Shown piece by piece: positions 5,284 to 62,109 of a DNA stretch of 64,000 nucleotides (position 1 is its first letter; the number at the start of each line of letters is the position of its first letter). The notes below the pieces were generated by a model, which saw only the letters and a list, made by a program, of their open reading frames with translations, made no database searches and was not told the origin of the DNA. The stretch is from Thiomicrorhabdus immobilis (GTDB taxonomy: Bacteria; Pseudomonadota; Gammaproteobacteria; Thiomicrospirales; Thiomicrospiraceae): contig NZ_AP024202.1 of the NCBI RefSeq assembly GCF_021654855.1, positions 1,674,001 through 1,738,000 on the forward strand. The letters run 5' to 3'. Made by a program: the position numbers and the translations under genes.

Positions 5284-6120
5284 CTAGGTAAGACTTGCGA
5301 TAACCGTCAATGCCTCAACCGTTGGTGCGACATCATGCACTCTCACTATCTGTGAACCTTTCATGCCCGCCAGTATTGCGGCGGCAACACTACCATGCAA
5401 ACGACTTTGCAGCGGAACATCACCTAGAATTTCGCCAATCATGCGTTTACGAGAAACACCTACCAAAATCGGATATTCAAGAGAGGTAAATTCTGACAAC
5501 TCTTTAAACAGCCGTTTATTATGCTCTAAAGTCTTACCAAAACCAAATCCAGGATCTAAAATTATCCGACTTTTATCAATACCGGCTTGCTCACAAACAC
5601 TCGCCCGGCTCAACAAAAATGCCTTAACTTCCTCCACGACATCTTCATAAGATGGTGCTTGCTGCATATCACCCGGATTGCCCTTTTTATGCATAAGACA
5701 GACCGCAACCTGGCCTTTAGCGACACAGTCAATAGCTCCGGTGTCTTGCAAGGCATTGACATCATTGACAATCGACACTCCAGCAATTATCGACTCCTGC
5801 ATAACCGGAGTCTTATAGGTATCTACCGAAACTGGAACATCAAACCTTTCGGTAATCCATTCGACTACCGGTATTACACGCTCCAGCTCAACGGAAAGCG
5901 GCACTGCATCAGCACCAGGCCTGGTCGACTCCCCTCCAACATCGATAATATCCACACCTTGTGAAATCATCTGAACGACACGCTCCTCAATAAGCTTTTG
6001 GGATACAAACAGTCCGCCATCAGAAAATGAGTCTGGAGTCACATTCAATATCCCCATCACCAGTGGAGTACCAGGCCTGGTCAAATGAATCCTGTGCAAT
6101 TCTTTTTCTATATCAAACAT
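5284..6120 (-). CDS. folP: Dihydropteroate synthase
   Basis: Joins p-aminobenzoate to the pterin pyrophosphate in folate synthesis. Residues 22-36 contain MGILNVTPDSFSDGG, the pterin-binding signature; the second motif VDVGGESTRPGA and a C-terminal VRVHD are also present. The ATG at 6120 (278 residues) is preceded by GAGGATAGGT; a TTG 12 bases upstream is less likely. The gene holds two exact copies of the ACCAGGCCTGGT palindrome 156 bases apart, both translated as Thr-Arg-Pro-Gly. It precedes glmM and follows the ftsH terminator. Confidence 0.97.
   Translation of the reverse strand: MFDIEKELHRIHLTRPGTPLVMGILNVTPDSFSDGGLFVSQKLIEERVVQMISQGVDIIDVGGESTRPGADAVPLSVELERVIPVVEWITERFDVPVSVDTYKTPVMQESIIAGVSIVNDVNALQDTGAIDCVAKGQVAVCLMHKKGNPGDMQQAPSYEDVVEEVKAFLLSRASVCEQAGIDKSRIILDPGFGFGKTLEHNKRLFKELSEFTSLEYPILVGVSRKRMIGEILGDVPLQSRLHGSVAAAILAGMKGSQIVRVHDVAPTVEALTVIASLT
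5914..5925. repeat. Iterated palindrome, exact copy (in folP)
   Basis: ACCAGGCCTGGT, read in folP as Thr-Arg-Pro-Gly within ESTRPGAD. The codons fall on conserved folP motif 2, so this copy may owe something to protein constraint. Confidence 0.9.
6070..6081. repeat. Iterated palindrome, exact copy (in folP)
   Basis: ACCAGGCCTGGT, again read as Thr-Arg-Pro-Gly in HLTRPGTP near the folP N-terminus. This is the second copy in the same gene. Confidence 0.9.
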
Positions 6121-12824: not shown

Positions 12825-14126
12825 CTACTTGTCAGCCTCTAATTCTTCTAACGTTTGTGCCACCGTAAAAAACGACCCCCAAACCAAGACATTAGATTTA
12901 TCACAACCTTTTACATACTCCGTGGCTAAGGCGATTGATTCAAACTCGCAAATCTGTTGTTTTTCCACGCCGGCTTGTAAAAGGATCCCTGTCAATTGCT
13001 GTAACCCCGTTGACCTTGGAATATCAAGATCTGCAATAGCCCACTGGCTGACAAAAGGTTTAATCACTCTGACCATGGGTAACATATCTTTATCGTTCAA
13101 TGCGGAGAACAGGGCTATGCTCTTATGAGGTTCAAAGGCTTGCTTTTCAAGGTATTCGGCCAAAACTTGAGCCGATTGGGGATTATGGGCGACATCAATC
13201 AACCAGGCCTGGTGGTTTATTTGCAACGATTGCATACGCCCTGGATGTTTGACCTCTGCTAAACCTTTATTGATATGTTCGATATCAACCGCTAACTGAG
13301 ATCGAATCTTTGACAGTAATGCGACCACACCCGATGCATTTTGCAATTGAAAATCACCATGCAACTGCGGTTTGGTTAAAGTTACAGCTGGCTGATCATC
13401 TTGCGTGAAATTAAATGACCAGGCCTGGTCATTTAATGGATTCTTTTGATAATCAAAATCGATTTTCAAACAAGCTAAATCCACCTGCAACTCCGCCGCG
13501 TAATCGATCAATGTTTGCGGTGGATTCGGATCGGAACAGATACTCAACCTACCCTCTCGCATAATTCCGGCCTTTTCAACCGCGATTAGACTTCTATCAT
13601 CACCAAGCCAATCAATATGATCGACGTCAATCGCTGTAATCAAAGACGCATCCGCATCAACCACATTGACCGCATCCAGGCGCCCACCCAATCCGACTTC
13701 TAAAACCACCACATCCAACTTGGCTTGTTTAAAGATGGTTAGAGCCGCTAAAGTGGAAAACTCGAAATAGGTTAATTTAATTTGTTCACGTTGGCTTTCA
13801 ATCGCGGTAAAAGCATCAACAATCTGCTGGTCACTGACAGGAACACTGTTGACTTGAATACGTTCGTTGAACTTTAAAATATGAGGAGACGTGTAAGTCC
13901 CCACATTGTATCCTGCCGCTTTTAAAATAGATGCCAACATAGCGACACTGGAGCCCTTACCATTGGTTCCGGCAACCGAAATGACAAACGGAGCAGGCCT
14001 GGTAACTTGCATTTTTTCAGCAACTAGGCGAATTCGCTCTAGTCCCAAATCGATTTCTTGGGCATGTAAATGCAGTAACCAGTCTACCCACTGTTCAAGA
14101 GTAGACTGGTTATTAGGAATATTCAT
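12825..14126 (-). CDS. folC: Bifunctional folylpolyglutamate/dihydrofolate synthase
   Basis: Mur-ligase-like ATPase that makes dihydrofolate and adds glutamates to folates. The P-loop AGTNGKGSSVAML is at about 53-65, and GLGGRLDAVN and VDVDHIDWLG follow. The length of 433 residues is normal. It lies between accD and the SPOR gene, the usual place. Unusually, it carries two exact copies and one one-mismatch copy of the ACCAGGCCTGGT palindrome, one inside a 28-base perfect palindrome. They are read as NHQAWL, NDQAWS and VTRPAP, in two reading frames. Confidence 0.97.
   Translation of the reverse strand: MNIPNNQSTLEQWVDWLLHLHAQEIDLGLERIRLVAEKMQVTRPAPFVISVAGTNGKGSSVAMLASILKAAGYNVGTYTSPHILKFNERIQVNSVPVSDQQIVDAFTAIESQREQIKLTYFEFSTLAALTIFKQAKLDVVVLEVGLGGRLDAVNVVDADASLITAIDVDHIDWLGDDRSLIAVEKAGIMREGRLSICSDPNPPQTLIDYAAELQVDLACLKIDFDYQKNPLNDQAWSFNFTQDDQPAVTLTKPQLHGDFQLQNASGVVALLSKIRSQLAVDIEHINKGLAEVKHPGRMQSLQINHQAWLIDVAHNPQSAQVLAEYLEKQAFEPHKSIALFSALNDKDMLPMVRVIKPFVSQWAIADLDIPRSTGLQQLTGILLQAGVEKQQICEFESIALATEYVKGCDKSNVLVWGSFFTVAQTLEELEADK
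13202..13213. repeat. Iterated palindrome, exact copy (in folC)
   Basis: ACCAGGCCTGGT, read in the minus-strand folC frame as His-Gln-Ala-Trp. No palindromic extension beyond the 12-mer. Confidence 0.9.
13410..13437. repeat. 28-base perfect palindrome in folC with iterated core
   Basis: The exact 12-mer ACCAGGCCTGGT at 13418-13429 is extended symmetrically by eight bases on each side, ATTAAATG and CATTTAAT. The whole 28 bases are self-complementary with no mismatch, inside an open coding frame (Asn-Asp-Gln-Ala-Trp). Confidence 0.92.
13992..14003. repeat. Iterated palindrome, one mismatch (in folC)
   Basis: AGCAGGCCTGGT; on the minus strand it reads ACCAGGCCTGCT, coding Thr-Arg-Pro-Ala near the folC N-terminus. 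Third member in this gene. Confidence 0.8.
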
Positions 14127-17891: not shown

Positions 17892-18677
17892 CTATTGCCA
17901 CAACATTTCATTAAGTTGTACTTGAGGAATAGCCAACTCATCAGGATAAATCGCATTGACAAAATACAACCCACTGGCTGGTGCCGTGGCCGCGGCCTGG
18001 GTTCTATCCCGAGCTTTCAGTAAATCAGCCAACCACTCGACCGGTTGCTGTTTTTTACCAACCGAAATCAATGATCCTGTAATGTTTCGCACCATATGGT
18101 GTAAAAAGGCATTCGCTTGAATATCAATAAACACCATATCACCCTTGCGGGAAACATCAATCGACTGGACTTCACGGTTAGCGTGACTGGCCTGACAGGC
18201 CGAAGCTCTGAAAGCGCTGAAATCATTCTCACCAATCAGACTCTGCGCCGCTTGATGCATGAGCTTTTCATCCAAATAATGAGGTTCCCAAGTCACCCGA
18301 TTATGTAGCACAGCCGAATGCACATCACGATTATAAATCACATAGCGATATTGACGGGCTATTGCAGAAAACCGAGCGTGAAATTCATCATCGACCGGTT
18401 TTGCCCAACGCACACGGATATCACCAGGAAGCTGGGTATTCACCCCCTGCACCCAAGCCTTACCAGGCCTGGTCACATCCGTTTCAAAATGCGCAATCTG
18501 CCCAACAGCATGCACTCCGGTATCGGTACGTCCGGCACAATGTAGGTCAATCGGCTGATTGGCAATACTCGAAAGCGCTTTTTCAACCTGAGACTGCACC
18601 GACTCGCAGTGACTTTGTCGCTGCCAACCGCAATAATTTGTGCCTAAATATTCAATACAAAGAGCGATTCTGTTCAC
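17892..18677 (-). CDS. truA: tRNA pseudouridine(38-40) synthase TruA
   Basis: Isomerises uridines 38-40 in the anticodon arm of many tRNAs. The catalytic aspartate is Asp52 in CAGRTDTGVHA. The C-terminal FLHHMVRNITGSL motif is also typical. Length 261 residues. The gene has one exact ACCAGGCCTGGT copy, read as VTRPGK. It follows asd by four bases and precedes trpF. Confidence 0.97.
   Translation of the reverse strand: MNRIALCIEYLGTNYCGWQRQSHCESVQSQVEKALSSIANQPIDLHCAGRTDTGVHAVGQIAHFETDVTRPGKAWVQGVNTQLPGDIRVRWAKPVDDEFHARFSAIARQYRYVIYNRDVHSAVLHNRVTWEPHYLDEKLMHQAAQSLIGENDFSAFRASACQASHANREVQSIDVSRKGDMVFIDIQANAFLHHMVRNITGSLISVGKKQQPVEWLADLLKARDRTQAAATAPASGLYFVNAIYPDELAIPQVQLNEMLWQ
18472..18483. 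repeat. Iterated palindrome, exact copy (in truA)
   Basis: ACCAGGCCTGGT, read as Thr-Arg-Pro-Gly within DVTRPGKAW of TruA. Confidence 0.9.
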
Positions 18678-22278: not shown

Positions 22279-22298
22279 AGTTACCAGGCCTGGTAACT
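22279..22298. repeat. 20-base palindrome with iterated core, leuD-leuB gap
   Basis: AGTTACCAGGCCTGGTAACT is fully self-complementary; the exact 12-mer core is at 22283-22294. It lies inside the leuCDB transcript, with no T run on the minus strand, so simple termination is unlikely. RNA stability or an attenuating hairpin are possible roles. Confidence 0.9.
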
Positions 22299-25186: not shown

Positions 25187-25198
25187 ACCAGGCCTGGT
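25187..25198. repeat. Iterated palindrome, exact copy (queE-rlmD gap)
   Basis: ACCAGGCCTGGT ten bases past the queE stop. Flanks do not extend the palindrome, and no T run follows, so it is not a standard terminator. Confidence 0.9.
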
Positions 25199-30803: not shown

Positions 30804-30825
30804 AAACGACCAGGCCTGGTTGTTT
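30804..30825. terminator. Palindromic bidirectional terminator with iterated core
   Basis: AAACGACCAGG pairs with CCTGGTTGTTT with one G-T wobble, followed on the plus strand by a T-rich end. The exact ACCAGGCCTGGT is at 30809-30820. It lies between two converging genes, the importer permease and the HAD phosphatase. Confidence 0.65.
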
Positions 30826-38104: not shown

Positions 38105-38200
38105 CGGCACTATAATCAAGCAGAAAACGGTTTTAAGACAAATAAAGCTGTTGTATTAAATTTGTATTATCCAGCCCATAACGCCATGCTGTAAAAAACA

Positions 38201-38237
38201 AAAAACCCCGAGTAACCAGGCCTGGTTACTCGGGGTT
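38201..38237 (-). terminator. ppnP terminator, 34-base perfect palindrome with iterated core
   Basis: Positions 38204-38237 are completely self-complementary, with AACCCCGAGTA on the outside and the exact ACCAGGCCTGGT at 38215-38226 in the centre. On the minus strand a T-rich stretch follows. It serves the ppnP gene; the small plus-strand gene also ends nearby. Confidence 0.88.
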
Positions 38238-38301
38238 AATTTGTATTTAGCTCAATGAGAAATCGATCCTCACGACCAAAAACAGATTCTCAACTAAAAA
38301 A

Positions 38302-44892: not shown

Positions 44893-45266
44893 CGTCATCT
44901 CCCTATAACAATCGTATTTAACAATCTTCTATAACAATCGATTTACTGCTGAACTTCAGCAAGTGTGTGTTTCGTCTTAAGTTAGAAGTTATCTTAGCGA
45001 CAGCAATTGTTCCAATAAAGAGGCAAAACAATAAAACACTGTTAACAAAAACAGAACAAATACGATTACAGTTTATTTACAAAAAGTTTGATGGGAGTGA
45101 GGAATGGCTAATCGGCAACCGTTAGAAAAGGGGTAATACAATCGCCTTAGAAAACAAACAGGCCTGGTAGAAATCAATTCGACCAGGCCTGTTAACTTAT
45201 TTCTAATTGGGTTTTTATTAGAGCTTAAATTTTAATAAAGCTTAATAGAACTTAGTTAATGGAAAC
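44893..45266. other. Long intergenic region between cytochrome b561 and carbonic anhydrase
   Basis: No convincing gene. It holds a direct repeat of TATAACAATCG at 44904-44914 and 44930-44940, just upstream of the b561 start, and the paired palindromes at 45157-45193. The remainder is AT-rich and probably contains the b561 promoter on the minus strand. Confidence 0.6.
45157..45193 (-). terminator. Stem from two iterated palindromes, carbonic anhydrase terminator
   Basis: AACAGGCCTGGT at 45157-45168 and ACCAGGCCTGTT at 45182-45193 are perfect reverse complements of each other, 13 bases apart. On the minus strand the stem is followed by TGTTTTCT, so it may end the carbonic anhydrase transcript. 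Each arm is also nearly self-complementary, so alternative folds are possible. Confidence 0.65.
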
Positions 45267-50698: not shown

Positions 50699-50730
50699 TT
50701 GCTTGGCACAATCAATTGGATTAACCTAAC

Positions 50731-50768
50731 AAAAAGCCAACTTACCAGGCCTGGTAAGTTGGCTTTTT
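50731..50768. terminator. lon terminator, 38-base perfect palindrome with iterated core
   Basis: All 38 bases are self-complementary: AAAAAGCCAACTT, then the exact ACCAGGCCTGGT at 50744-50755, then the mirror arm ending TTTTT. Runs of A and T on both sides let it act in both directions, between converging lon and the HDOD gene. Confidence 0.92.
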
Positions 50769-50802
50769 GTTTGAGTTCAACCGTCTTTTTAGATAAAGGG
50801 CA

Positions 50803-58885: not shown

Positions 58886-58917
58886 TTTGAAACTCACCAG
58901 GCCTGGTGAGTTTTAAA
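58886..58917 (-). terminator. merR terminator, 24-base perfect palindrome with iterated core
   Basis: Positions 58890-58913 are fully self-complementary around the exact ACCAGGCCTGGT at 58896-58907; with one wobble the stem extends to 32 bases. The T-rich tail is weak. It lies between the merR gene end and tRNA-Pro. Confidence 0.7.
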
Positions 58918-62097: not shown

Positions 62098-62108
62098 ACC
62101 AGGCCTGG

Positions 62109-62109
<1 letters not shown>
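62098..62109. repeat. Iterated palindrome, exact copy (pheS-pheT junction)
   Basis: ACCAGGCCTGGT fills the short gap between pheS and pheT; its last base is part of the pheS stop codon. It would form a hairpin in the pheST message between stop and start. Confidence 0.9.

Follow-up and report, generated by a model that had tools for sequence, protein, structure and literature searches.

How does a perfect 28-bp palindrome come to lie within a protein-coding gene, and does its symmetry serve a purpose there? The palindrome, ATTAAATGACCAGGCCTGGTCATTTAAT, occupies positions 13410..13437 of the window, a 64-kb (64,000-nucleotide) stretch of the genome of the sulfur-oxidizing bacterium Thiomicrorhabdus immobilis, and falls within a minus-strand open reading frame (ORF) at 12825..14126 that we take to be folC, encoding folylpolyglutamate/dihydrofolate synthase, as it was named in the original prediction. 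Re-reading the interval bore out the description of a 12-mer extended on each side by eight symmetric bases, and the segment is indeed coding in the FolC frame, where it specifies the minus-strand peptide NDQAWSFN. Among named genomes, the nearest relatives of this FolC come mostly from Thiomicrorhabdus. The 12-bp core, ACCAGGCCTGGT, is located at 13418..13429. The gene carries a second exact core (NHQAWLIDVAHN) at 13202..13213 and a third, near-exact copy at 13992..14003 that has one mismatch and an intact octamer, CAGGCCTG.

The folC palindrome belongs to a large class. The window has 12 exact copies of the core versus none in 100 shuffles, and the 2.54-Mb genome has 446 (about 1 per 5.7 kb) versus none for the reversed control word. 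Exact copies outnumber those with one mismatch in this genome (446 versus 251), and the octamer occurs at 0.32 per kb over 464 kb of it. A literature search on three nested words did not meet the 12-mer in any of the best 40 of 848 matching papers, among which a paper with the 12-mer would have ranked first. Besides those in folC, exact cores lie in ORFs at 5914..5925 and 6070..6081, which share a reading frame and are both exact in the orthologues from genomes G009 and G015, and at 18462..18473, which is exact in the orthologue from G015. Outside called ORFs, exact cores are found at 22283..22294, 25187..25198, 30809..30820 and 62098..62109, and others are embedded in longer symmetric sequences that are likewise outside called ORFs: a long, terminator-like inverted repeat at 38192..38249 with the core (38215-38226) near its center, a perfect and terminator-like 44-bp palindrome at 50728..50771 with a central core (50744-50755) and T-runs in its arms, and a near-perfect 32-bp palindrome at 58886..58917 around the core at 58896-58907. 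An inverted pair of one-mismatch copies, 25 bp apart, occurs at 45157-45193, and a close pair of exact copies occurs at genome positions 357887/357912.

The repeated motif is longer than the 12-mer and thereby supplies part of the flank symmetry of the folC copy. Among 81 sampled copies from the T. immobilis genome, the flanks favor Y at -2 and A at -4/-5, mirrored by R at +2 and T at +4/+5, which gives the symmetric motif AAnYn-ACCAGGCCTGGT-nRnTT. In general layout, the octamer is central and usually within the 12-mer, R follows at +2, and the bases from about +4 to +6, counted outward from the 12-mer, are T-rich. The R at +2 is common to G018, G030 and G036, and AT-richness at +4/+5 recurs with variable strength, the T-rich stretch being shifted to +3/+4 in G078 and G033; the flank consensus, when anchored on the octamer, is also present in G009, G015, G005, G025 and G061. 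The shared consensus explains the symmetry of the folC copy at ±2, ±4 and ±5. We read the remaining five flank pairs as coincidence, and the extra symmetry of this copy is mostly coincidence on that reading. Judged by coding control frequencies, symmetry at all eight flank pairs has a chance of about 9e-5 per coding site, or about 0.02 sites expected over the whole genome, whose coding copies number roughly 209 if the 446 are split in the proportion seen in the sample from this genome (38 of 81 sites inside called ORFs), and the folC site alone has at least 8 symmetric pairs among 137 coding copies sampled from seven genomes. The folC copy is an outlier within the palindrome class and not a separate class.

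The proposal that a longer palindromic unit had been inserted into folC, or had reached it by gene conversion, was rejected on the basis of the orthologues, whose alignment shows no insert of 12-28 bp. FolC sequences, including those from motif-less genomes, can be aligned through the W-S/L-F stretch; the differences among them are codon substitutions and small length changes upstream of that stretch. Most motif-less genomes have different residues ahead of the W and no insert. Of 60 aligned FolC sequences, 15 have the core at the focal W codon; they come from 15 of the 27 genomes with at least 80 copies (genera g1, g3 and g6), while the 33 other genomes have no exact core anywhere in folC. 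None of nine g5 genomes has the core at this codon. The octamer is found there in 19 of the 60 sequences, and occurs without the full core in G005, G006, G017 and G025. At the second folC site, 8 of 60 sequences have an exact core at the aligned codon, four of them from g5, and 13 of 60 have the octamer, which six g5 genomes carry. The octamer of the third site recurs at the matching position in seven congeners. These patterns are consistent with a folC site that arose through codon changes and is an old copy of the genome-wide site, in which case its perfect 28-bp symmetry would combine the shared motif with outer bases that happen to match.

Compensating changes that keep the flank symmetry, which had been put forward as something to check, did not emerge from the 15 orthologous copies. 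Pair ±1 is symmetric in 9 of them (7.4 by permutation, P 0.23) and pair ±2 in 8 (6.9 by permutation, P 0.39); the pair adjoining the core is thus broken in 6 of 15. The lengths of perfect flank extension are 8, 6, 6, 5, 5, 5, 4, 1, 1 and six times 0. When symmetry is summed over all eight positions, a weak excess appears (80 versus 69.4, P 0.009 by permutation), and this P value can be inflated because the 15 sequences are related by descent. It might be argued from this excess that the palindrome, that of folC included, is selected as an RNA or cruciform structure, as a hairpin or terminator element would be. Of 200 shuffles of the folC RNA segment, 199 do fold less well than the real sequence (z -3.2), but good folding is a built-in property of any perfect palindrome, and the broken pairs next to the core speak against a conserved stem.

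A broader view of the role of structure comes from 306 copies sampled in 1.46 Mb from seven genomes, with 137 in called ORFs and 169 outside them; the ORFs are those of at least 90 aa from a longest-ORF caller, not a trained gene finder, and the flank and symmetry counts cover sites at least 40 bp from the ends of the stretches. In the coding copies, symmetry beside the core is at the level of shuffled pairings (0.33 versus 0.31 at ±1, 0.43 versus 0.43 at ±2 and 0.27 versus 0.29 at ±3), and it exceeds that level most at position 7 (0.35 versus 0.28, z 2.3). Nine ORF copies have runs of at least 4 symmetric pairs versus 2.9 expected with self-pairs removed, and three have runs of at least 6 versus 0.3 expected. 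Misassigned ORFs may account for some of these long-armed copies, which would then lie at gene ends. Despite the excess of such runs, arm symmetry as a rule for coding copies was rejected since it is absent beside the core. Outside ORFs, 45 of 169 copies have at least 4 symmetric pairs (7.5 expected) and 27 of 169 have at least 6 (1.1 expected). Hence the original prediction was right that the palindrome is not due to the protein alone, that it is one of a genome-wide class and that the flanks of other copies are symmetric, whereas insertion into folC, and conversion or selection for a cruciform as a general rule for genes, are unsupported. Selection on structure is a quite improbable explanation for the class as a whole: long arms and T-runs do occur outside ORFs, yet 112 of the 169 copies there do not reach a stem score of 4. 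A caution that follows is that perfect symmetry within one gene need not signal a local hairpin or an insertion.

Copies outside ORFs are concentrated where genes end. There are 60 in 30.9 kb between convergent genes (1.94/kb), 12 in 32.9 kb between divergent genes (0.37/kb) and 85 in 97.3 kb between tandem genes, with 12 of the 169 lacking a called neighbor on one side. A stem followed by a T-run is found in 27 of 169 copies outside ORFs and in 2 of 137 within them, counts that stand without a shuffle control. The enrichment at gene ends together with the copies that have a stem and a T-run suggests a role at gene ends for part of the class. Gene ends may tolerate the sites, and some sites may have been reused as the tips of terminator hairpins.

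REP/BIME palindromes, which are moved by RAYT transposases, are palindromic and frequent outside genes, and the bias of the motif towards DNA outside ORFs and towards convergent gene ends resembles theirs. The class described here differs from REP/BIME elements in that nearly half of its sampled copies (137 of 306) are in called ORFs, and in that no intact RAYT was found in the T. immobilis genome, where the sole Y1_Tnp match (1469369-1469548) is partial and contains an internal stop. Y1_Tnp matches are also absent from the motif-rich genomes G035, G036, G062 and G082, and 18 of 30 genomes have RAYT matches, motif-bearing and motif-less alike. Given also that the folC copy arose without an insert, spread of the motif as a RAYT-driven mobile element is very improbable.

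Comparison among relatives indicates that the class is old and has been lost and altered in places. Exact counts range from 0 to 718 across 62 genomes of the order, all from one family; 41 of the 62 have a match and 27, in 4 of 7 genera, have at least 80. In other families, each of 21 genomes has 0 or 1 copy. A FolC tree, midpoint-rooted solely for display, places the low-copy genera g2 and g28 as the first branches, followed by high-copy lineages within which further low-copy clades are nested, a topology that we read as suggesting one early gain and several losses. At orthologous coding places outside folC, motif-bearing genomes keep the exact core in 18 of 48 cases versus 1.2% of 1,183 control 12-mers, a set from which reciprocal exact pairs, unaligned pairs and unclassed genomes were also removed; the raw count, with folC and reciprocal pairs included and 25 of 251 unaligned pairs dropped, is 46 of 91. 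Motif-less genomes have the exact core at 0 of 34 such places, and dialect or low-copy genomes keep the core at 0 of 26 and the octamer at 1 of 26. The coding sites of the latter genomes thus lie mostly elsewhere, which implies that positions turn over and that few single positions can be essential.

Some genomes with few exact copies have a variant of the motif. Exact copies number 25 in G005 and 16 in G025, but allowing one mismatch raises the counts to 259 and 209, versus 4 and 2 for controls; in both, octamers occur at 0.40-0.43 per kb and keep the R and the T-rich arms seen elsewhere, but the bases adjoining the octamer are different. In G061, CCAGGCCTGG is kept and the T-tracts are longer (21 octamers in the sample). 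The octamer is nearly absent from the motif-less genomes G003, G019, G024 and G063 (0-1 per 60-100 kb sample), and k-mer scans of 60-100 kb samples from these genomes and from G064 did not find a replacement palindrome of comparable frequency. The palindrome TCCATTAATGGA does occur four times in 80 kb of G024 (L098 15016; L101 3790, 10987 and 11472), three of them within 20 kb. The top k-mer words in G019 and G063 come from tandem arrays, one of 11 bp (L103 9891-10056) and one of 318 bp (L148 183-8464), and one checked top word of G064 also lies mostly at 318-bp steps.

What kind of process would maintain such a motif? The relation between the two halves of the palindrome is informative in this regard. 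In the T. immobilis genome, the tail NRNTT follows CCTGGT at a frequency of 0.52 when the partner half is intact and 0.33 when it has one mismatch, versus 0.03-0.11 when it has at least two. Lone half-sites, defined as CCTGGT with the tail and a partner half with at least three mismatches, number 12 in T. immobilis (G000), 1 in G018 and 7 in G030; they are not clearly enriched, as 19, 82 and 9 of 89 anagram hexamers, respectively, reach these counts. The test is not clean in every genome, given that just 19 and 9 hexamers reach the counts in G000 and G030. The arms accompany whole palindromes and not isolated half-sites. Since they are tied to an intact partner half, a lone half seems insufficient for recognition, which suggests that the motif is read by a symmetric protein.

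We propose that the motif is a chromosome-wide recognition site, HIP1-like in form, for a putative dimeric DNA-binding factor, an explanation derived from sequence comparison that we consider about equally likely to be right or wrong. A homodimeric factor would read the motif by touching its GC-rich center and AT-rich arms, and the sites would be kept by selection or drive for a chromosome-wide job, most likely in the architecture of the nucleoid or chromosome; the sites would then disappear from lineages that had lost the factor. Points against a binding factor are that the single-copy chromosomal ParB offers no candidate protein, that the coding sites of dialect and low-copy genomes mostly lie elsewhere, that a drive, such as biased DNA uptake, could shift hundreds of sites to a new dialect more easily than selection acting site by site, and that the half-site test is not clean in every genome. 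With respect to the first, a search of the T. immobilis genome did not find a second ParB, and each of 30 genomes, motif-bearing or motif-less, has one main ParB match. An extra match was above the cut-off only in the motif-rich G018, and one was below it in the motif-less G024.

ParB/Noc and MatP-type sites are palindromic protein-binding sites of similar length that are spread over the chromosome. The motif differs from them in having far more copies and in the lack, within the sample, of any bias towards the origin or the terminus. Its copies are evenly spread over 23 sampled segments of 20 kb (index of dispersion 0.51) and occur on either side of the GC-skew switch. Among the sites listed, the coefficient of variation (CV) of spacing is 0.92 in T. 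immobilis (P 0.25), or 0.78 without the largest gap (P 0.004), and 0.94 in G018 (P 0.37), or 0.85 without the largest gap (P 0.11). In G036 it is 1.73, falling to 0.64 without an 83-kb gap, so that the over-dispersion of this genome is due to that gap, a motif-free stretch at C1:209050-292353 in a genome of 400 copies. The longest motif-free gap among the first 100 T. immobilis sites listed, 410571-445493, contains rpoB, rpoC, fusA, tufA, rplC, rplB, secY and rpoA, a content that led us to reject a foreign island as its cause. Protein constraint or heavy transcription may exclude copies from this stretch of rpoBC and ribosomal protein genes.

The main rival to a binding factor is a DNA-uptake signal like the DUS of Neisseriaceae or the USS of Pasteurellaceae, in which case competent cells would prefer site-bearing DNA, and uptake bias would raise the number of copies, make dialects and allow the use of sites in terminators. 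Published DUS and USS, as described in passages of PMC12616744, number in the hundreds to thousands, are used in terminators, have dialects and, for USS, carry AT-rich arms. The motif shares with them its copy number in the hundreds, with exact copies in excess of one-off copies in T. immobilis, its dialects on a conserved inner core with AT-rich arms as in USS, and its copies with a stem and T-run. The T. immobilis genome has a ComEC match that covers nearly the full length of the protein. ComEC, the only competence gene compared, was matched in 39 of 40 genomes with or without the motif, and was rejected as a correlate of the motif because it is equally present in the motif-less G003, G019, G023 and G024. 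The motif is also symmetric and shows no clear enrichment of lone half-sites, in contrast to the USS words in those passages of PMC12616744, which are non-palindromic. On balance, we regard an uptake signal as rather unlikely.

A second family of known elements that the motif resembles is the highly iterated palindromes (HIPs) of cyanobacteria, which, in the sections of Elhai 2015 (PMC4390886) on which we draw, have a density close to 1 per kb. HIP1 is described in the same sections as a short, very-high-copy palindrome with palindromic extensions, alternates in particular lineages and losses. The strong genome-wide over-representation of a palindrome, the palindromic extensions, the lineage alternates and the losses all hold here. 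The motif differs from HIP1 in its 12-bp core with AT-rich arms, its density of about 1 per 5.7 kb and its bias outside ORFs and towards gene ends. Elhai proposed, in that portion of PMC4390886, that DNA methylation together with mismatch repair creates or maintains HIP1. Such an origin is improbable for the motif. The complete T. immobilis genome has no match at E 0.001 to the methyltransferase families PF00145, PF01555 and PF02086 (C5, N4/N6 and D12), and these families are also unmatched in G021 (488 copies) and G027 (333 copies). In addition, it is not obvious that a methylation ratchet would produce the R and the T-rich arms.

If the putative dimeric factor exists, the motif could be an independently evolved, family-wide palindromic recognition code with dialects, and might either serve as a self-DNA uptake signal, which would be the first palindromic one, or mark the roughly 450 chromosomal sites of a sequence-specific nucleoid protein that several lineages no longer have; we hold this extension of the binding-factor reading to be possible, though somewhat doubtful. 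How highly iterated palindromes are kept up in bacterial genomes is an unsettled question, and the family offers a natural experiment for addressing it, as relatives have 300-700 copies, a dialect or none, and one complete high-copy genome is available in which the three methyltransferase families were not found. Six stretches from a viral collection carry the motif with A/T arms, one of them with two copies in 11 kb, and these are possibly phages or prophages of the family that contains Thiomicrorhabdus.
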